DNA from: an uncultured Pseudohongiella sp.
Lineage (GTDB): Bacteria; Pseudomonadota; Gammaproteobacteria; Pseudomonadales; Pseudohongiellaceae
NCBI GenBank assembly: GCA_951812965.1
Contig: OX638341.1
Location: 3,268,438-3,332,437, forward strand
Direction: 5' to 3'
DNA length: 64,000 nucleotides
The notes under the pieces were generated by a model. The model was given only the letters and a program-made list of their open reading frames with translations, did no database searches and was not told the DNA's origin. Within the stretch, counting starts at the first letter, position 1, and each line of letters opens with the position of its first letter. The position numbers and the translations under genes were made by a program. Positions 3,345 through 14,260 of this stretch are shown here, one piece after another.

Positions 3345-4124
3345 ATGATCAGTAGTGAACAACCCATTGAACTGACTGTTGAAAACCTGTGTGTTCGCGC
3401 AGGCGACCTGTTCCTGGTGGAAAACGCCTCCTTCAACATGAGTTCCGGAGAACTTGCCGTGCTGCTCGGACCCAATGGCGCCGGCAAGACCAGCCTGTTA
3501 CGGGGAATTCTGGGCCTCGCGCGGAAGGATTCGGGCGCCGTGCAACTGCAAGGGCGCACGCTCACGGAGTTCAATCCGCAGCAGCTGGCACGCCAGCTTT
3601 CCTACCTGCCGCAGCGGCGTCCGCTGGCCTGGCCGAGCCCGGTGCGCGACGTAGTCAGTCTGGGCCGTTATGCCTGGGGCTGCGCACCAGGGCGGCTCGG
3701 CGCCGAGGACGTCAGAGCCGTGAATTCGGCGCTTGCCGCCTGTGACCTGCTGGAAATGGCCGAGCGAAGCACTGACACCCTGTCCGGGGGTGAGTTGGCG
3801 CGAGTGCATTGCGCACGCGCTTTCGCCACCGAAGCGCCCCTGCTGTTCGCGGATGAGCCCGTTGCCTCCCTCGATCCCAGACACCGCTTCCGCATCATGC
3901 AATTAATCCGCAGCCATGTGCGCACCGGCGCCGGCGCCCTGGTCGTACTGCACGATGTCTCGCTGGCGGCCCGCTTCGCCGACCGCTTGATCTGGATGAA
4001 AGACGGGCAGATCGTCGCCGACGGCCCACTGACGGAAACACTGACAGAATCGCGAATGGCCGAGATCTACCAGGTCGAGGCGCGGGTTGATGGCGTCCGC
4101 GTGGAAATTGAACAGCCCTTGTGA
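3345..4124 (+). CDS. btuD: ABC transporter ATP-binding protein (cobalamin uptake)
   Basis: ATPase component of the importer, about 259 residues from the ATG at 3345. An in-frame TTG at 3327 is less likely because it lies inside the repeat-bearing leader. Walker A is GPNGAGKT, the Q-loop region reads LSYLPQRRPL, the ABC signature is LSGGELARVH (a variant of LSGGQ), Walker B is LLFADEP followed by the D-loop SLD, and the switch His is in VVLHDVS. All catalytic motifs are present. It ends the four-gene uptake cluster; about 320 bases later the unrelated microcin-type cluster begins. Confidence 0.9.
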   Translation: MISSEQPIELTVENLCVRAGDLFLVENASFNMSSGELAVLLGPNGAGKTSLLRGILGLARKDSGAVQLQGRTLTEFNPQQLARQLSYLPQRRPLAWPSPVRDVVSLGRYAWGCAPGRLGAEDVRAVNSALAACDLLEMAERSTDTLSGGELARVHCARAFATEAPLLFADEPVASLDPRHRFRIMQLIRSHVRTGAGALVVLHDVSLAARFADRLIWMKDGQIVADGPLTETLTESRMAEIYQVEARVDGVRVEIEQPL

Positions 4125-4442
4125 TGTTTACCTCGCGAAGCCGGCCTTATCCGTGTCAGGGTTTGTTCTTTCGGGTTCGATCCTCTTCAAGGAAAGGTGG
4201 CTGGTACCAACGCCTGTCGGAAGCTTCAGCTAGCCAAAAGAATTCCTTAAACAAGGACAGAAGACATCAAGTCATAATTTGTTGCAATTTTGGTATTGAC
4301 TTGGGGGGGGGGGGTAATGTGCCAATACCTTGACCATTTGATGTGATGGTATGAAAATCCAACTCATGTTGACAATCATGCTGCATGGAATGGTTTAGGA
4401 AATGGTGGCTGCGGCCAAATACGAAACTTTAGGAGAACGAAT
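4125..4442 (+). promoter_or_regulatory. Leader/promoter region of the microcin-type cluster with a G12 tract
   Basis: A 318-base non-coding stretch, visibly richer in A/T than the btu genes. It contains a run of 12 G at 4303-4314 placed directly between a good -35 hexamer TTGACT (4296-4301) and a -10-like TAATGT (4315-4320); the spacer is 13 bases as sequenced. A second consensus -35, TTGACA, is at 4369-4374 without a convincing -10. A clear ribosome binding site AGGAG (4431-4435) precedes the precursor ATG by seven bases. The promoter assignment is inference; the G tract and the hexamers are plainly visible. Confidence 0.5.
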
Positions 4443-4709
4443 ATGGGTGATTTATCAATTGTGAATGCCGACCTCGATTGTGGCATTCAAGAACTGTCGA
4501 ATGAGGAAATCGACCTCGTTAGCGGTGGATCCAGAATACGAGCGGTATACCGCGGAATTCGAGAAATTGTGACGTGGATAGGTGCTATCTCCCTACTCCC
4601 AGACTACCAAACTTGGCACGATGGGTTTACCGAGAGAGCCCATGCAAGAGGACGACGCATGATAAATCAAAGACGATGCGTCACCAGCCGGGCTGTTGAT
4701 GGGTGCTAG
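4443..4709 (+). CDS. Microcin/bacteriocin-type precursor peptide with double-glycine leader
   Basis: Small protein of 88 residues with a strong Shine-Dalgarno. Residues 1-29 form a classic class II leader ending in IQELSNEEIDLVSGG: the acidic ELSxEEIDxV pattern followed by Gly28-Gly29, the site cut by C39-peptidase exporters. The predicted 59-residue core is strongly basic (about 11 Arg), starts SRIRAVYRG, has a hydrophobic patch WIGAISLLP, and carries two Cys (79 and 88) near the C-terminus that could form a disulfide. The C39-ABC exporter and adaptor needed for processing follow downstream. I do not recognise the core as any named bacteriocin. The G+C content is lower than in the surrounding genes, suggesting transfer. 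Confidence 0.8.
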   Translation: MGDLSIVNADLDCGIQELSNEEIDLVSGGSRIRAVYRGIREIVTWIGAISLLPDYQTWHDGFTERAHARGRRMINQRRCVTSRAVDGC

Positions 4710-4749
4710 ACTTGAAGCATTCTTGACTGACAATTTTCATGAAGAAGAG

Positions 4750-4780
4750 GAAAGTGGAAGGCTAGTATCCTTCCACTTTC
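4750..4780 (+). terminator. Strong stem-loop after the precursor gene
   Basis: Perfect 12-base stem (GAAAGTGGAAGG pairing with CCTTCCACTTTC) and a 7-base loop, lying 40 bases after the precursor stop and 24 bases before the next gene. There is no clean U-tract, so it is more likely a partial terminator or mRNA-stabilising structure giving more precursor than exporter transcript. Confidence 0.65.
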
Positions 4781-4804
4781 TCGTTGTGATCTAAAAAAGG
4801 AACT

Positions 4805-5368
4805 ATGGAAAACTTGTACACATCCTTGGCCAAAATATCCAAAGTGAGGCTCTTTTTCTTGTTTTGGGCGATAGCTGAATTTTTCTCTATTGTTTCGGTT
4901 GTTATTGTTGTATTTCTAGGTGACTTTCTTGTGCCTGCTTCACATGAAAATGAAGAATTTTACTTGAATAATGATGCGTTTTTTAACAATCCATTGTTTG
5001 TGATATTTTTGGGTTTGGTAGTCATCGCACCGATTGTCGAAACAACCATATTCCAGGTAATATTATTGAACCTGACAAAAAGACTGACACTTGTAGTAAT
5101 TAAGTCAGACAGTTGGTTGCCTGCATTTGTTATTACCAGCATCCTGTTTGCGTATTCCCATGCTTTAGTTAGCAATTCTTTTAGTGATATTTCTAATGTT
5201 TTGTTTAGGATTCCGGGCGGAGTTTTGCTTACATTGCTCGCAATAGTTGAAAGAGAGCGGAAGCAAGGAAGTGCGTTTATCCCCGTTGCCTGCTTGCATG
5301 GTTTACACAATCTTGTAACTTTTTTTACATTATTGGTGCTCGAAACGATGCTTGCTCTTGATAGCTAA
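4805..5368 (+). CDS. CPBP-family membrane protein (degenerate intramembrane protease or immunity protein)
   Basis: Integral membrane protein of 187 residues with several hydrophobic helices, preceded by AAGGA. The three motif regions of the CPBP (CAAX-protease-like/bacteriocin processing) family are visible: motif 1 APIVETTIFQ (Glu79), motif 2 FAYSH (His119) and motif 3 HGLHN (His165, Asn169). Motif 1 is degenerate: the normal second Glu is Thr80 and the usual Arg is Gln84. In bacteriocin loci such proteins often give self-immunity, or act in maturation. Its position between the precursor and the exporter supports one of these roles. The gene is markedly AT-rich compared with the exporter. 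Confidence 0.75.
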   Translation: MENLYTSLAKISKVRLFFLFWAIAEFFSIVSVVIVVFLGDFLVPASHENEEFYLNNDAFFNNPLFVIFLGLVVIAPIVETTIFQVILLNLTKRLTLVVIKSDSWLPAFVITSILFAYSHALVSNSFSDISNVLFRIPGGVLLTLLAIVERERKQGSAFIPVACLHGLHNLVTFFTLLVLETMLALDS

Positions 5369-5386: not shown

Positions 5387-7471
5387 TTGAAACTTGTTCG
5401 TCAAAGCGAGGCCACAGAGTGTGGAATTGCATCCATTTCCATGGTTGCGCAGCACTACGGTCACAAGATTGATTTGAATGCGATGCGTCAGCGTTTCGGA
5501 TCGTCGTTGAGTGGTGTGCGTCTTCGCGACCTGATGAAGATTGCCGAGCAGCTTTCGCTCGGCTCCCGGGCCTTGCGGCTCGAACCCGGACGACTCAAGG
5601 ACATTACGCTTCCCGCGATCCTGCACTGGGACATGGACCACTTCGTGGTGTTGAAGGAAGTCAGACACAACCGATTTGTCGTATTCGATCCCGCCCTTGG
5701 CCGTGTAACCTACTCGCTCGCGGAAATTTCCAGTCACTTCACCGGCGTCGCGCTGGAACTGACTCCCGCCACCGACTTCCGGCCGGTCGTGGCCCGGACC
5801 AGAACCCGCCTGAACAGCTTGTGGTCCCGCCTTTCCGGCCTGAAACGATCCCTGGCGCAGATTCTCGTCCTGTCCGTCGTGATCCAGCTGTTCGCCCTAG
5901 TTTCGCCCTTCTATCTGCAACTGGTCATTGATGAGGCAGTTACGCGCTTCGATTCGGACTTTCTGGTATTGCTCGCGCTCGGATTCGGAATTCTTTATCT
6001 GATCCATGCCGTCACGGAAGCATTGCGATCCTGGGTGATCCTGTTGCTCGGGCAGTCCATTACGTTCCAGATGGCGGGGAATGTGTTGCGACATCTGATC
6101 CGTTTGCCAGCGGCATACTTCGAGAAACGGCATGCGGGAGACATCATTTCCCGCATCGGTTCGATACAACCGATACAAACCGCGCTCACACAAAACATGA
6201 TTGCGGCCCTTGTCGACGGCGTCATGGTTGTAGCCACTATTTCCTTGATGCTTTTGTACAACTGGAAACTGGCGTTGATTGCCATTTTTCTCACGATCTT
6301 GTATCTGATCATCTCACTCATCCTTTTCCCCTTCATGCGTAGTCGACAAGAAGAACTGATCGCTAAAAGCGCGTTAGAACAGACGCACATGATTGAAACG
6401 ATTCGCGCATCTCGCTCAATCAAGTTGGTAGGCAGGGAAGTCGAGCGCGAGAACGCATGGTGCAATCTGTACACGGATGTTATCAACGCCGGCATAACTT
6501 ACGGACGGCTGGAGATCGGCAATCAATTCGGGTCTACCTTGTTGTTCGGACTGCAAACCGTGCTCATCGTCTACTTCGGGGCGCGATACATCCTGGCGGG
6601 CGAGATGAGCATCGGCATGTTGTTCGCCTTCATGTCGTACCGGCAGCATTTCGCGACCACTGCGGAGGGACTGGTCAACAAGGGCATCGAGTTCCGCATG
6701 CTCGGACTGCATCTGGAGCGACTCTCGGACATCGTACAATCTGCAAAGGAAGACGGTCTGGAAGTGCCGGTTTCCGAAATCAGGAAAGTAAACGGTCGGA
6801 TTGAACTGGAAGAAGTCAGCTTTCGGTACGACCCGAACGAACCGTTCCTTTTTGAAGAAATTTCCCTTTCCATCCAGTCGGGAGAATACATCGCCATTAC
6901 CGGCCCCTCGGGCGGCGGTAAGACGACTCTTTTGAAAGTAATGCTGGGTTTGCTGAAACCGGAGACGGGCGTCATGCGGATAGACGGATTGCCATTGCAT
7001 TCCCTGGGCCTGCGCAACTGGCGCGCCGCGGCGGGCGTGGTCATGCAGGACGACCAGCTTTTGTCGGGATCCATTGCCGACAATATCGCCAGCTTCGATC
7101 CGCAAATCGACATGGAGCGGGTAGTCGAATGCGCCACGCTGGCGCGGGCGCACGACGACATCAGCCGGATGGCGATGCACTACCTGTCGATGATTGGGGA
7201 CATGGGCGCGGCTCTTTCCGGCGGCCAGCGTCAACGACTGCTGTTGGCGCGGGCGCTTTACCATAAACCCCAAGTGCTTTTTCTGGACGAAGGCACGGCC
7301 AACCTCGATCTTCAGGCCGAACGGCAGATCGCGGAAGTCATTTCGGGCATGGAAATCACCCGAATCGTAGTAGCTCACCGGCCCGAACTGCTCAAACGGG
7401 CGGATCGAATCTTCATAATGGCCGGCGGCAAGCTGATCGAACAAAAGAAGCCGCAGCAACAGGAAAACTGA
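5387..7471 (+). CDS. Peptidase-containing ABC exporter (C39 bacteriocin processing and secretion)
   Basis: Inner-membrane exporter of the PCAT family, about 694 residues. The N-terminal C39 peptidase has Gln6, the catalytic Cys12 (SEATECGIAS), His85 (DMDHFVVL) and Asp101 (VFDPALG). Six membrane helices follow (about 150-430), then an ABC domain with Walker A GPSGGGKTT near residue 505, signature LSGGQRQR, Walker B VLFLDEG and switch His in VVAHRPE. The protein should cleave leaders after Gly-Gly and export the core peptide. The start is a TTG 18 bases after the CPBP stop in the same frame, with no strong ribosome binding site; translation may be coupled. Confidence 0.93.
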   Translation: MKLVRQSEATECGIASISMVAQHYGHKIDLNAMRQRFGSSLSGVRLRDLMKIAEQLSLGSRALRLEPGRLKDITLPAILHWDMDHFVVLKEVRHNRFVVFDPALGRVTYSLAEISSHFTGVALELTPATDFRPVVARTRTRLNSLWSRLSGLKRSLAQILVLSVVIQLFALVSPFYLQLVIDEAVTRFDSDFLVLLALGFGILYLIHAVTEALRSWVILLLGQSITFQMAGNVLRHLIRLPAAYFEKRHAGDIISRIGSIQPIQTALTQNMIAALVDGVMVVATISLMLLYNWKLALIAIFLTILYLIISLILFPFMRSRQEELIAKSALEQTHMIETIRASRSIKLVGREVERENAWCNLYTDVINAGITYGRLEIGNQFGSTLLFGLQTVLIVYFGARYILAGEMSIGMLFAFMSYRQHFATTAEGLVNKGIEFRMLGLHLERLSDIVQSAKEDGLEVPVSEIRKVNGRIELEEVSFRYDPNEPFLFEEISLSIQSGEYIAITGPSGGGKTTLLKVMLGLLKPETGVMRIDGLPLHSLGLRNWRAAAGVVMQDDQLLSGSIADNIASFDPQIDMERVVECATLARAHDDISRMAMHYLSMIGDMGAALSGGQRQRLLLARALYHKPQVLFLDEGTANLDLQAERQIAEVISGMEITRIVVAHRPELLKRADRIFIMAGGKLIEQKKPQQQEN

Positions 7472-7506: not shown

Positions 7507-8748
7507 ATGGAGATTTTTCGCAAAGAAGTAGTTGAGCGCCAGGGGAACCGGCTGTTCGGCGAAGTCGCGCTTACCACCCCGGTTTCGACCTGGGCCGTTA
7601 CCGGGCTGATCGGCGCCATCGTCGCAGCTATAGCAATCGTCCTGTTTACAGGCAGCTACGCGCGCAAGGAAATCGTTTACGGCTGGCTGAAACCCGACAA
7701 GGGTCTGGTAAAAATCGTTTCCCCACAACTCGGCACGGTCGCGACCGTTCATGTGGGTGAGAATCAGGCAGTCCGCAAGAGTGATTCACTGGTCACGCTG
7801 AATCTGGATACGGCTTTTGCCGGAGGCGAAGGCGTATTCGGAGTCGCGTTGACGGAAATCGAAGCGCAGATTGCCGAAAGGGAAAAACTGTTGCCTCTGA
7901 CCGAACAAAGCTTTGAACAGGAAACCAGGGAACTGCAAAACCGGACCGAGTCCATACAGGCAGAAATCGCGTCCCTAGAAGCCCAGCGGCAAGTGCTGGA
8001 CGAACGAATCCATACCGCGAACGCATCACTGAAACGATTCGAGCTGTTGGCAAGCCGAAACGTGGCTTCCCAGCACGATGTGGAGCGGCAACAGGAAATT
8101 GTGCTCGCGCTACGGCAATCCGATCAACAGATCGCCCAGCAGATCCAAGTCAAGCAGGGAGAATCGGCAACCTACCGGTTGAGGCTTGAGGGCGCGCCGG
8201 TAAGGCGGCAGACCGCATTGGCTGAACTGAGAGCGGGACTGTCCAGCCTGCGGGCGCAAATGGCGCAAGTCGCGGGACAGGGAACCATCGTATTGAAGGC
8301 GCCGGTTGACGGCCGCATCGCCGCATTACCGGTTTCCAGTGGACAAAACATGCGCCCGCAGCAACTTGCCGTTTCTCTGTTGCCGCGAGGCGGACGGCTG
8401 GAAGCAGAGTTGTTCGCACCGACCAGAGCCGCCGGATTCATTCAAACCGGTCAGACCGTTCGGCTGCAATTCGATGCGTTTCCTTATCAGAGATTCGGGG
8501 TCGTTGAGGGGGTTATCGATTCGGTGTCCCGGACGATATTCGAACCGGCGGAGTTGCCCGTGTCGCTCAACGTCCAAGGTCCCGTCTACCGGATCGTGGC
8601 TGGCATCTCTGCACAGCATATCGATGCTTACGGCGAGCGCTTTCCGTTACAGGCAGGCATGACCTTGAACGCGTACATCATTCAGGAAGAAAGAAAGCTC
8701 TGGCAAGTGCTGCTGGAACCGTTGCTTGCCAGAATTCGAGTCAGCTAA
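7507..8748 (+). CDS. HlyD-family membrane fusion protein of the peptide exporter
   Basis: Periplasmic adaptor, 413 residues. There is a short cytoplasmic N-terminus, one membrane helix (about residues 22-45), a lipoyl-like half (VSPQLGTVATVHVGENQAV), a long coiled-coil hairpin rich in Glu/Gln (about 110-240), and the returning lipoyl/beta-barrel part (VLKAPVDGRIAALPVSSGQ). It would link the C39-ABC exporter to an outer-membrane TolC-type channel, which is not encoded here. It starts 35 bases after the exporter. The gene closes the cluster, with the next gene convergent and only 7 bases away. Confidence 0.9.
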   Translation: MEIFRKEVVERQGNRLFGEVALTTPVSTWAVTGLIGAIVAAIAIVLFTGSYARKEIVYGWLKPDKGLVKIVSPQLGTVATVHVGENQAVRKSDSLVTLNLDTAFAGGEGVFGVALTEIEAQIAEREKLLPLTEQSFEQETRELQNRTESIQAEIASLEAQRQVLDERIHTANASLKRFELLASRNVASQHDVERQQEIVLALRQSDQQIAQQIQVKQGESATYRLRLEGAPVRRQTALAELRAGLSSLRAQMAQVAGQGTIVLKAPVDGRIAALPVSSGQNMRPQQLAVSLLPRGGRLEAELFAPTRAAGFIQTGQTVRLQFDAFPYQRFGVVEGVIDSVSRTIFEPAELPVSLNVQGPVYRIVAGISAQHIDAYGERFPLQAGMTLNAYIIQEERKLWQVLLEPLLARIRVS

Positions 8749-8755
8749 AGTCTGG

Positions 8756-10192
8756 TCAAAACGAATAACTTATCGTGGCGCCGAGGCGCACGTCCTCGTC
8801 GAAGAACACCATCGGCGAGGGAATCTTTCCGCTGATGGCGACGATCTGGCTGCTGATCGACCAGTTGTCGTCGATCGTGTAGTCGGCGCTGAACTGCCCG
8901 AGCAGGGAATCCCCTTCCAGATCGCCGAAAACCGTGGAAGACAGCACCAGATCGCCGTCGAGCAGACTGTTGCTGTATCGCACCAGCCAATTGCCGAAAA
9001 AGTCATCGTTCAGCATTTGCTGACCCGGAGGCAAACCTTCGTTCAGGTCCAGCAACTTCTGCGCCGCGACACCGAAACTGACGTTTTGTTCGTTGTCGAT
9101 GTTGTATTCAAGTCCGAAGGAAGCGCCGATCTGGTTCTTTTGCAGATCGACCGGTACCGAAAGACCCGTAGTGCCCGGCAGGCTGAAACTGTTGGCCAGG
9201 ATGCCGTGGCTGTAAGCCAGGTCGAAATTCAGCAACATGTCGCCGAAGGCGCGGTTGGCGCTGAAACCGAGCAGCATGAAGTCATTTTTCTTCGCCAGCG
9301 AATCGAGACTGCCGCGGGGCGGCGGATCCCAGCGCAACTGATTTTCGATCAGATAAGCCGCCATCACCGCGAAATCGCTGCGCTCTATCGAATAGCGCCA
9401 CTGACTGCCCACCTCGAACAGGATGTCTTCGTTGCGGTCGAAATCCGGCAGGTGATAACCGGGATCGAAAAACAGCGGACTGCCGCGCACCGGCGCCGGA
9501 TTGAATTCGGGATAGAGAGTCACGAAAGTGGAAAAACTGCCGGAATTCTCGCTGAAATAGTCCCAAACCACCATGGGCTGATTCAGGCGGGCATCTTCGA
9601 TATCGATAATCGTGAAGTCGCGAAATTCCGCGATATTGATCACATCGAGCACCGAATTGCCAACGGTTTCGCCCCATACAACCGTCTGGTTGCCGACTTT
9701 TACGCTGTGCGCGCCGAAACTGCGCTGGACGAAAAACTCGTTGACGCGCGATTCAGTCTCGATCTCATTGCCGTGGGCGATGTATTCGTAATCCTCGTTC
9801 CAGTAGACCCGAGTCTGCGCACTTGCCTGCAACAGCCAACCATTGGAAAAAAGATTCTGATAGCGGACATTCACTCCAAGCCGATTGTTTTCGATCGTCG
9901 GCTCCCTCGGAAAACTGAAGCCCGGCAAGAGCTCCAGCGTGTGCCGGTTGACCTGACCGAAAACCTGCTGGCTGATGCGAACCGTAAAATCGTCAAGCCA
10001 GGACGCTTCCCGCTCTTTCCCGTCTTCCTCGAAGGCATCCGCAAACAAGTTATCGTCGAATCCGAGTTCAAGCTCGAATTCGTCGCTCGGCGGCAAATCG
10101 TCAGCGGGCTGAGCCAAGGCCGTCAATGGCAGCAAGCAGAGCAATAGGGGCAGGACAGTCCACCGCCCTGGTCGCGGAGCAGCATTTCTCAT
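8756..10192 (-). CDS. DUF1302-like outer-membrane beta-barrel protein (full-length copy)
   Basis: 478-residue secreted protein: signal peptide with VLPLLLCLLPLTALAQ, a short acidic region, then a beta-rich barrel with strand-like repeats and a C-terminal Phe (GATISYSF). It resembles the DUF1302 family often encoded with an MMPL/RND transporter and a lipoprotein-sorting-like protein, both of which are found here at 14261-17904. Function is unknown; a role in passing hydrophobic compounds across the outer membrane is inference from that association. Its first ~295 codons are duplicated at 13084-13964. This copy is the intact one, though it is now separated from its presumed partner genes by about 4 kb. 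Confidence 0.75.
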   Translation of the reverse strand: MRNAAPRPGRWTVLPLLLCLLPLTALAQPADDLPPSDEFELELGFDDNLFADAFEEDGKEREASWLDDFTVRISQQVFGQVNRHTLELLPGFSFPREPTIENNRLGVNVRYQNLFSNGWLLQASAQTRVYWNEDYEYIAHGNEIETESRVNEFFVQRSFGAHSVKVGNQTVVWGETVGNSVLDVINIAEFRDFTIIDIEDARLNQPMVVWDYFSENSGSFSTFVTLYPEFNPAPVRGSPLFFDPGYHLPDFDRNEDILFEVGSQWRYSIERSDFAVMAAYLIENQLRWDPPPRGSLDSLAKKNDFMLLGFSANRAFGDMLLNFDLAYSHGILANSFSLPGTTGLSVPVDLQKNQIGASFGLEYNIDNEQNVSFGVAAQKLLDLNEGLPPGQQMLNDDFFGNWLVRYSNSLLDGDLVLSSTVFGDLEGDSLLGQFSADYTIDDNWSISSQIVAISGKIPSPMVFFDEDVRLGATISYSF

Positions 10193-10827: not shown

Positions 10828-11207
10828 AGCTAAAGTGTACGGTGCCTATCGACAGCAGTCAATCGCCCTTGAACCTTTCCGCACCGATTCAATGGGCTAC
10901 CATGGGGGCTACCATGGGGCTACCATGGTGGGCTACCATGGGACACCCACCCTTGGAAGTCATGGCGAAAGTCATGGAATACCCACCTCTTTGCGTTTCC
11001 AACCGCGGTTTTGTTCCGCTTCCACGCGAATAGCAATGGGTGTCCCAGCCCGCTCCTATAATGAAGTCTGGACGGAGTACGTCCCAGATCTAGACTGTCA
11101 AGCGGAGAAGTGAAAAAGAAGTTAAGGATATTTGGAGCTATGCCGATAAGGGTTTCTCCATACCTGGCCGGCAACAATGTGTCAGTCAACACAAGAGGAG
11201 TACCATA
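10828..11207. repeat. Gene-free stretch with a short GGGCTACCATGG repeat array
   Basis: 380 bases without a gene. At 10894-10945 the unit GGGCTACCATGG occurs four times with 11-13 base spacing; the last is followed by GACACCCACCC, then two looser units (AGTCATGG) and ACCCACC to about 10986. An inverted copy, TGGGTGTCCCA, lies at 11038-11048, so the stretch could fold. The same GACACCCACCC tail and a one-letter variant of the unit make up the array at 11702-11898. The remainder (11050-11190) shows nothing recognisable except a Shine-Dalgarno (AGAGGAG) for the next gene. Confidence 0.75.
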
Positions 11208-11701: not shown

Positions 11702-11898
11702 CCTGTAGGGCTCCATGGAGGGCTCCATGGGGGGCTCCATGGGACACCCACCCAAGATTCTCCCAAGATATGGGGCTCCATGGGACACCCACCCAAGATT
11801 CTCCCAAGATATGGGGCTCCATGGGACACCCACCCAAGATTCTCCCAAGATATGGGGCTCCATGGGACACCCACCCAAGATTCTCCCAAGATATAGCT
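11702..11898. repeat. 41-bp tandem repeat array (four units) with short leader units
   Basis: Four near-identical 41-base units from about 11731, with unit starts near 11771, 11812 and 11853. Each contains GGGCTCCATGGGACACCCACC and AAGATTCTCCCAAGATAT. They are preceded by two short GGGCTCCATGG units. Because 41 is not a multiple of three, the array is open in several frames, but the resulting peptides are only repeat translations. It directly precedes the REP-type transposase, the classical position of REP/BIME elements mobilised by such enzymes. Confidence 0.88.
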
Positions 11899-13027: not shown

Positions 13028-13960
13028 TCAAGTTGAACTGAATTCATGTACACTGAGTTGGCTGATGAGTGTCCCACAGGCGTGGGGCGGCGGATCCCAG
13101 CGCAACTGGTTTTCGATCAGATAGGCCGCCATTACCGCGAAATCGCTGCGCTCTATCGAATAGCGCCATTGACTGCCCACCTCGAACAGGATGTCCTCGT
13201 TGCGGTCGAAATCCGGCAGGTGGTAACCGGGGTCGAAAAACAGCGGGCTGCCGCGCACCGGCGCCGGATTGAATTCGGGATAGAGAGTCACGAAAGTGGA
13301 AAAACTGCCGGAATTCTCGCTGAAATAGTCCCAAACCACCATGGGCTGATTCAGGCGGGCATCTTCGATATCGATAATCGTGAAGTCGCGAAATTCCGCG
13401 ATATTGATCACATCGAGCACCGAATTGCCAACGGTTTCGCCCCATACAACCGTCTGGTTGCCGACTTTTACGCTGTGCGCGCCGAAACTGCGCTGGACGA
13501 AAAACTCGTTGACGCGCGATTCAGTCTCGATCTCATTGCCGTGGGCGATGTATTCGTAATCCTCGTTCCAGTAGACCCGAGTCTGCGCACTTGCCTGCAA
13601 CAGCCAACCATTGGAAAAAAGATTCTGATAGCGGACATTCACTCCAAGCCGATTGTTTTCGATCGTCGGCTCTCTCGGAAAACTGAAGCCCGGCAAGAGC
13701 TCCAGCGTGTGCCGGTTAACCTGACCGAAAACCTGCTGGCTGATTCGAACCGTAAAATCGTCAAGCCAGGATTCTTCCCACTCTTCCTCGTCTTCCTCGA
13801 AGGCATCCGCAAACAAGTCATCGTCGAATCCGAGATCAAGCTCAAATTCGTCGCTCGGCGGCGAATCGTCCGCAGGCTGAGCCAAGGCCGTCAATGGCAG
13901 CAAGCAGAGCAATAGGGGTAGGACAATCCACCGCCTTGGTCGCGGAGCAGCATTTCTCAT
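13028..13960 (-). pseudogene. DUF1302-like gene, 3'-truncated duplicate
   Basis: Second copy of the outer-membrane protein gene. From the ATG at 13958-13960 the signal peptide and about 292 residues match the copy at 8756-10192; the protein is identical from FSFPREPT to WDPPP. It then breaks at about 13084 into an unrelated 18-residue tail (HACGTLISQ...). The C-terminal ~185 residues, including the final barrel strands, are missing, so a functional barrel is unlikely. It lies downstream of the lipoprotein-sorting-like and MMPL genes on the same strand, where the intact gene is expected, so the original locus may be this one. Confidence 0.85.
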
Positions 13961-14260
13961 TTTGGCATCGAAGCCTGGATCAACGAGTCCTGCACACAGC
14001 GAGGAGCCGCGGGCGGGTGGGCCTTTTCGCGTCGTGTGAGTCATTACGCGCCATTTTCACATCAAAGCCCTGATCGGCGGAATCCGCATACTGCAAGGTG
14101 CCGTGGGCGGGAGCGCCTTTTCGCGTCGTGAGAGTCGTTGCGTGCCATGGATGGCTCAAAGCGACGACGACCCGATTCGAACCTCGTCATGGATGACGAG
14201 GTGAGATTAAGCGAAAAGGCGTTCCCGCCCACGGCCCCGCTCGAAGCCACACCGTCCGGT
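13961..14260. repeat. Gene-free stretch with long inverted repeats
   Basis: 300 bases with no gene. Inverted repeats of 25 bases (one mismatch) lie at 14100-14124 and 14211-14235; they contain GGCGGGAGCGCCTTTTCGC on the left. Between them is a second palindrome (CCTCGTCAT / ATGACGAGG). A direct partial copy of the left arm, GCCTTTTCGCGTCGTG, is at 14021-14036 as well as 14115-14130. The arrangement could form a large cruciform or RNA hairpin following the 14261-15175 gene and may act as its terminator, or be a small non-autonomous element. Confidence 0.75.

Follow-up and report, generated by a model that had tools for sequence, protein, structure and literature searches.

Does a run of G residues lying between two promoter-like hexamers, upstream of a peptide-export operon, work as a switch for that operon? 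The question is raised by the window, i.e., the whole stretch of 64,000 nucleotides from an uncultured Pseudohongiella sp. analysed here. The original prediction placed at positions 4296–4320 the arrangement TTGACT, one T, twelve G and TAATGT, with a spacer of 13 bp, and the sequence reads exactly so. It also proposed that slippage in the tract makes the promoter phase-variable and, as a conjecture, that the peptide system is costly and ON in few cells.

The promoter and the operon

The putative -35 hexamer, TTGACT (4296–4301, + strand), matches the consensus at five of six positions, and each of the nine sister promoters that were compared has TTGAC here. It is followed by a single T (4302), the poly-G tract (G12; 4303–4314, + strand) and the putative -10, TAATGT (4315–4320, + strand). 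This -10 is weak: only three of its bases agree with TATAAT, yet they occupy the three most conserved positions, and the paralogous operon also has TAATGT, with a spacer of 14. In other words, a homopolymer of at least eight residues separates a -35-like and a -10-like hexamer upstream of a gene, whose ATG lies 128 bp from the end of the tract.

Downstream of the tract, the following genes are found in one row on the + strand: (i) an 88-aa peptide precursor (4443..4709) with a double-glycine (GG) leader (ELSNEEIDLVSGG) that aligns with those of six sister peptides, preceded by the ribosome-binding site AGGAG (4431–4435, + strand); (ii) a CPBP/Rce1-like membrane protein (4805..5368; PF02517, E 1.7e-8); (iii) a C39-peptidase ABC transporter (5387..7471; PF03412, PF00664 and PF00005; under the model cut-off of TIGR03796), predicted to cleave and export GG-leader peptides; and (iv) a HlyD-family membrane fusion protein (7507..8748; PF13437, E 1.9e-15). 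A GG-leader peptide, a C39-domain ABC transporter and a HlyD adaptor together are what defines a GG/C39 export operon. The 5' neighbour, on the same strand, is a TonB-receptor/periplasmic-binding/FecCD/ATPase uptake cluster that ends at 4124. A 12–13 bp hairpin, detected by scanning (4749..4781, + strand; RNA fold z -1.65), separates the peptide gene from the export genes and may be an attenuator. Its position suggests a promoter that serves the peptide above all, with the exporter fed by read-through past the hairpin.

The window peptide precursor has no Pfam match and reaches none of the bacteriocin models; the peptide of the operon in the related genome G022, the only one among the operon peptides to do so, reaches TIGR03949 (28.7 bits; cut-off 21.5). 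At their C-termini, the peptides of the paralogue (L029 2850–2869, CSSNPYAC) and of the relative G021 (L034, CAQHPMNC) carry a C-x6-C pair, and the window peptide has C-x8-C instead; these cysteine pairs make a disulfide in the mature peptides possible.

Several other features were seen in these surroundings. By eye, a transposase-like remnant (L029 3100–3725) lies between the peptide and CPBP genes of the paralogous operon. Further along the window, a 41-bp unit (GGGGCTCCATGGGACACCC...) stands in four perfect copies in tandem (11731–11894); there are also 12-bp repeats related to that unit (10894–10942 and 11708–11743) and, on the - strand, a DUF1302 gene (8756–10192) with a truncated near-copy (13028–14044) about 4 kb apart.

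Homologous promoters with and without the tract

A homology search with the C39 transporter retrieved a paralogous operon in the window genome (82% identity), as well as operons in G021 and G022. A family-wide C39 search then added one more tract operon (G073) and several tract-free operons (two in G104, one in G083 and one further copy in G021); a third G021 copy, near a contig end, was kept outside the tract/no-tract grouping. There are thus five tract promoters from four species of one Pseudomonadales genus, all of them upstream of GG-peptide/C39 operons, with tracts of G11, G12, G12, G15 and G16 as assembled (homopolymers in assemblies may be miscounted). Being of common ancestry, these five loci do not count as independent events; among them, the position of the tract is kept and its length differs. 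Apart from the window, the promoters read: (i) TTTGTTACAAA-7-TTGACTT-G11-TGTAATGT in the paralogue; (ii) TTTGTTGCAAA-7-TTGACAAATT-G16-TAGCCT in G021; (iii) TTTGTTACAAA-17-TTGACTTC-G15-TGGCACTATACG in G022; and (iv) TTTGTCACAAT-6-TTGACT-G12-TAGTATATT in G073. The spacers to the best -10 are 13 (window), 14 (paralogue), 15 (G073), 20, and 20 or 23, so that with the best -10 none of the five assembled spacers falls within 16–18 and the nearest is that of G073. In G022 only 46 bp separate the end of the tract from the ATG, and hence its tract lies within or just beside the promoter.

The four tract-free promoters have, at the matching place, TTGACA-17-TAAGAT, TTGACA-18-TATAAC, TTGACA-16-TATAGG and TTGACA-18-TATAAG. 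G083 (TTGACA-GGGGTTAAACGTG-TAGTATAGG) and its sister G073 (TTGACT-G12-TAGTATATT) both have TTGAC at one end of the spacer and TAGTATA at the other; because they agree at both ends, the tract stands where the ordinary spacer stands. The prediction of a phase-variable spacer promoter is strengthened on two counts: (i) in five homologous promoters of peptide-export operons the spacer is formed by the homopolymer, whose length differs; and (ii) the tract occupies the place of the normal 16–18 bp spacer of the sister operons. Tract and tract-free states are interleaved on the C39 tree, where well-supported branches force at least three changes. In consequence, the tract was gained or lost repeatedly, and the tree is compatible both with a tract that was ancestral and then lost in places and with one that was gained several times.

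TTGAC followed by at least 9 G and then TA occurs at six sites in 137 family genomes, of which five are the operons described here, and the sixth (TTGAC plus G9, in G023) has no GG-leader gene or clear -10. The exact repeat-plus-tract pattern, which the variant repeat of G073 escapes, has no match in the other 81 genomes of the genus or in 390 other genomes of the order, and the promoter region has no match in the plasmid collection.

An inverted repeat upstream of the tract

The original prediction made no mention of an inverted repeat, TTTGTTGCAAT (4278..4288, + strand; consensus TTTGTnACAAA), which lies 7 bp upstream of TTGAC and is a putative regulator site. With 0–2 mismatches, the consensus is present at most 60 bp from TTGAC in all five tract promoters, always with a gap of 6–7 or 17 bp; the best match in the four tract-free promoters has 3–5 mismatches, and its position varies. 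With 2 mismatches, the window copy is the weakest of the five and, taken alone, it is unremarkable, as 76 of 1000 shuffles are as good. A candidate activator element thus stands at fixed phase upstream of each of the five tracts. The gaps of 7 and 17 differ by 10 bp and so preserve the helical phase, suggesting a repeat-bound protein in contact with RNA polymerase. Probably, a regulator binds at the repeat and works in concert with the tract. The repeat is not an abundant global site, since the 13-base pattern TTTGTTRCAAANT occurs at two further places only in the window genome, G021 and G022, both in G021.

In the flanks read by eye, no regulator gene was recognised beside the operon. A sigma-54 promoter around the repeat was considered and discarded, also by eye, on account of the misfit of the GG/GC spacing. 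The link between repeat and tract is claimed inside the family only, because there the loci were reached via C39 homology and the G073 variant would escape the pattern. A cross-phylum association between the repeat TTTGTTACAA and poly-G promoters was rejected: the matches in Chloroflexi, Bacilli and Allocopromorpha had the repeat built into the pattern, and the other poly-G promoters of those genomes are mostly without it.

The repeat leaves room for an explanation in which nothing is switched. The poly-G would be a fixed structural part of a regulator-dependent promoter, where a repeat-bound protein activates transcription despite a poor, G-stacked spacer and changes in tract length are drift with no role in switching. 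This would account for the restriction of the repeat, at constant helical phase, to the tract promoters, as well as for the fact that no tract length yields a standard spacer. However, lengths from 11 to 16 with the flanks kept would not be tolerable for a fixed geometry, and runs this long are prone to slippage in all well-studied bacteria (PMC2823697, PMC1891110), so that this explanation is considered unlikely.

Other accounts of the tract

The peptide gene may also be transcribed from another promoter, TTGACC-17-GAAAAT (4330–4358, + strand), located downstream of the tract, which would then be irrelevant or modulate from upstream. This is the best consensus match on the + strand between 4100 and 4810 (9/12, with a spacer of 17), and the paralogue retains a weaker form of it, GTGACG-17-GAAAAT. 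Nevertheless, the G021 homologue has no matching -10, the short distance between tract and ATG in G022 leaves no room for such a promoter, and the shuffled expectation of matches of this quality in the region is 0.7; on these grounds, it seems quite improbable. As regards the proposal that TAATGT is the -10 and that three or four extra G would turn the promoter ON, the geometry fits, but the hexamer is weak, the downstream match scores better and the inverted repeat suggests that a regulator takes part.

Whether the tract might be an artefact of assembly or sequencing, or a chance homopolymer, can be judged from run lengths. The window contains no other G run of at least 9, and its remaining G/C runs are of length 4 (219), 5 (39), 6 (4) and 7 (1). 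In the whole 3.43 Mb genome, counts put together from pattern matches give 28, 1, 0, 2, 1, 1 and 2 G runs of exactly 7, 8, 9, 10, 11, 12 and 17, respectively. Because the counts break at lengths 8–9, runs of at least 10 form a separate population and not the tail of the distribution. Six G runs of 10–17 exist genome-wide and two of them lie in the homologous (paralogous) promoters. The strongest argument against chance is that the tract recurs in homologous promoters. Long G runs are error-prone, and there is a scaffold gap with poly-C junk close to the G073 locus, but the tract occurs at the same place at five loci, in separately assembled genomes and with unique flanks on both sides, which, together with the broken distribution, makes an artefact or a coincidence very improbable. 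The two 17-G runs of the window genome (contig 1, 1803083–1803099 on the - strand and 1890538–1890554 on the + strand) have no TTGAC before them. The genome encodes MutS and, hence, slippage is not raised here through MutS loss.

Finally, translational phase variation, in which the tract would shift the frame of a longer ORF, is effectively refuted, since, although an open frame that is not credible as a gene (4121–4333) spans the window tract, at four loci all frames that cross the tract stop well before the peptide ATG and, at the fifth (G022), two frames stop before the ATG and one 19 bases inside, so that at none of them is the tract part of the reading frame.

A probable slipped-strand spacer switch

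The best explanation, which we consider likely, is that of a slipped-strand, spacer-length phase-variable promoter of a GG-peptide/C39-exporter operon, of the porA/fetA/opc kind. According to this explanation: (i) replication slippage would add or remove G residues in the tract between -35 and -10; (ii) a fixed block upstream (TTTGTnACAAA plus TTGAC) would thereby come to lie at another distance from, and in another helical phase to, a -10 that is itself fixed downstream; and (iii) the changed spacer would alter transcription of the peptide gene. The state assembled in the window, with a spacer of 13 to TAATGT, would correspond to OFF or low expression, and about G15–G17 would give spacers of 16–18. 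A regulator at the inverted repeat, in constant phase before TTGAC, would probably act jointly with the tract. We infer that the tract slips in living cells, which hexamer serves as the -10, how transcription is affected, and what the repeat and the peptide do. Variation in tract length is to be expected here because it has been documented for promoter G tracts of like size in Helicobacter canadensis (PMC2823697). With all five assembled spacers outside 16–18, most cells may be OFF, the -10 may have been misplaced at some loci, or a regulator may shift the optimum.

A more tentative proposal, possible though doubtful, concerns the cassette as a whole. The inverted repeat, TTGAC and the poly-G spacer would have repeatedly replaced, or been replaced by, fixed-spacer promoters, and the repeat-bound regulator and tract slippage would jointly choose the peptide-making cells, as an AND gate of signal and chance.

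Poly-G-spacer promoters in other genomes

At class level, four of the five matches outside the window genome have no GG-leader gene or clear -10; G661 has a poly-G promoter before a lipoprotein gene (L121; TTGACT-T5-G14-TATAAG). Other arrangements of this type were observed further afield. Two gut Bacilli/Tenericutes MAGs of 1.2 and 1.5 Mb (L047 in G512 and L051 in G514) have dozens of sites each with TTGAC plus poly-G (8–11), many of them with TATAAT or TACAAT downstream; these seem to be families of poly-G-spacer promoters spread over the whole genome, and they may be more striking than the window tract. In an Allocopromorpha genome (L048, G513), two poly-G-spacer promoters precede genes for large secreted proteins. 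In a Chloroflexi genome (L046, G511), TTGACA, a 17-bp spacer with G11 and TATATA lie upstream of a response-regulator gene whose product has, by eye, a C-terminal helix-turn-helix.

Comparison with known systems

Most known spacer-homopolymer switches control surface antigens in pathogens adapted to a host, and there they are explained by immune evasion. The conserved tract feature is real and probably represents a switch of this known type on a kind of operon, C39/GG-peptide, for which no spacer-tract promoter was found in the open-licence literature searched. If true, this would suggest that in an uncultured Pseudomonadales genus the making of bacteriocin-like peptides is itself gambled on, cell by cell. 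A natural experiment is also at hand, since the operon occurs in sister species both with a tract and lacking it.

In Neisseria porA, fetA and opc, -35 and -10 are separated by a homopolymer, so that the spacing of sigma-factor contacts depends on its length (PMC2791445). The homopolymer has the same location here. But whereas the Neisseria genes code for surface antigens in bacteria adapted to a host, the present case, known from the DNA itself, involves an exported GG-leader peptide and a shared upstream inverted repeat. Bordetella fim2, fim3 and fimX have a fim box and a C-stretch before the -10, and the threshold distance between the activator region and the -10 is debated (PMC1891110). 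In both systems a homopolymer precedes the -10, and an element lies upstream of it that is only a candidate control site in our case; the promoters described here differ in having a recognisable TTGAC, G on the coding strand, a repeat of unrelated sequence and no known BvgA-like regulator. In Neisseria nadA, NadR operators flank a variable tract whose length alters spacing (PMC2791445). There, too, a regulator site (putative in our case) is joined with a repeat tract, although the tract of nadA is a TAAA repeat upstream of the promoter, whereas here it is a G run within the spacer and no downstream operator was seen.

In H. canadensis, promoter-region tracts of G10–16 vary in length in read data (PMC2823697); the present tracts, known from assemblies, are alike in being promoter G tracts, with no homology of genes or flanks. 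As for the type of operon, a close case is the gonococcal nap island, in which GG-leader peptides, a C39 peptidase and homopolymer tracts coincide and phase variation has been predicted (PMC11798529). The three elements are also combined here, but while the nap tracts are placed inside reading frames (poly-G in napR and poly-T in napC), the tract of the window operon and its relatives is placed in the promoter spacer.
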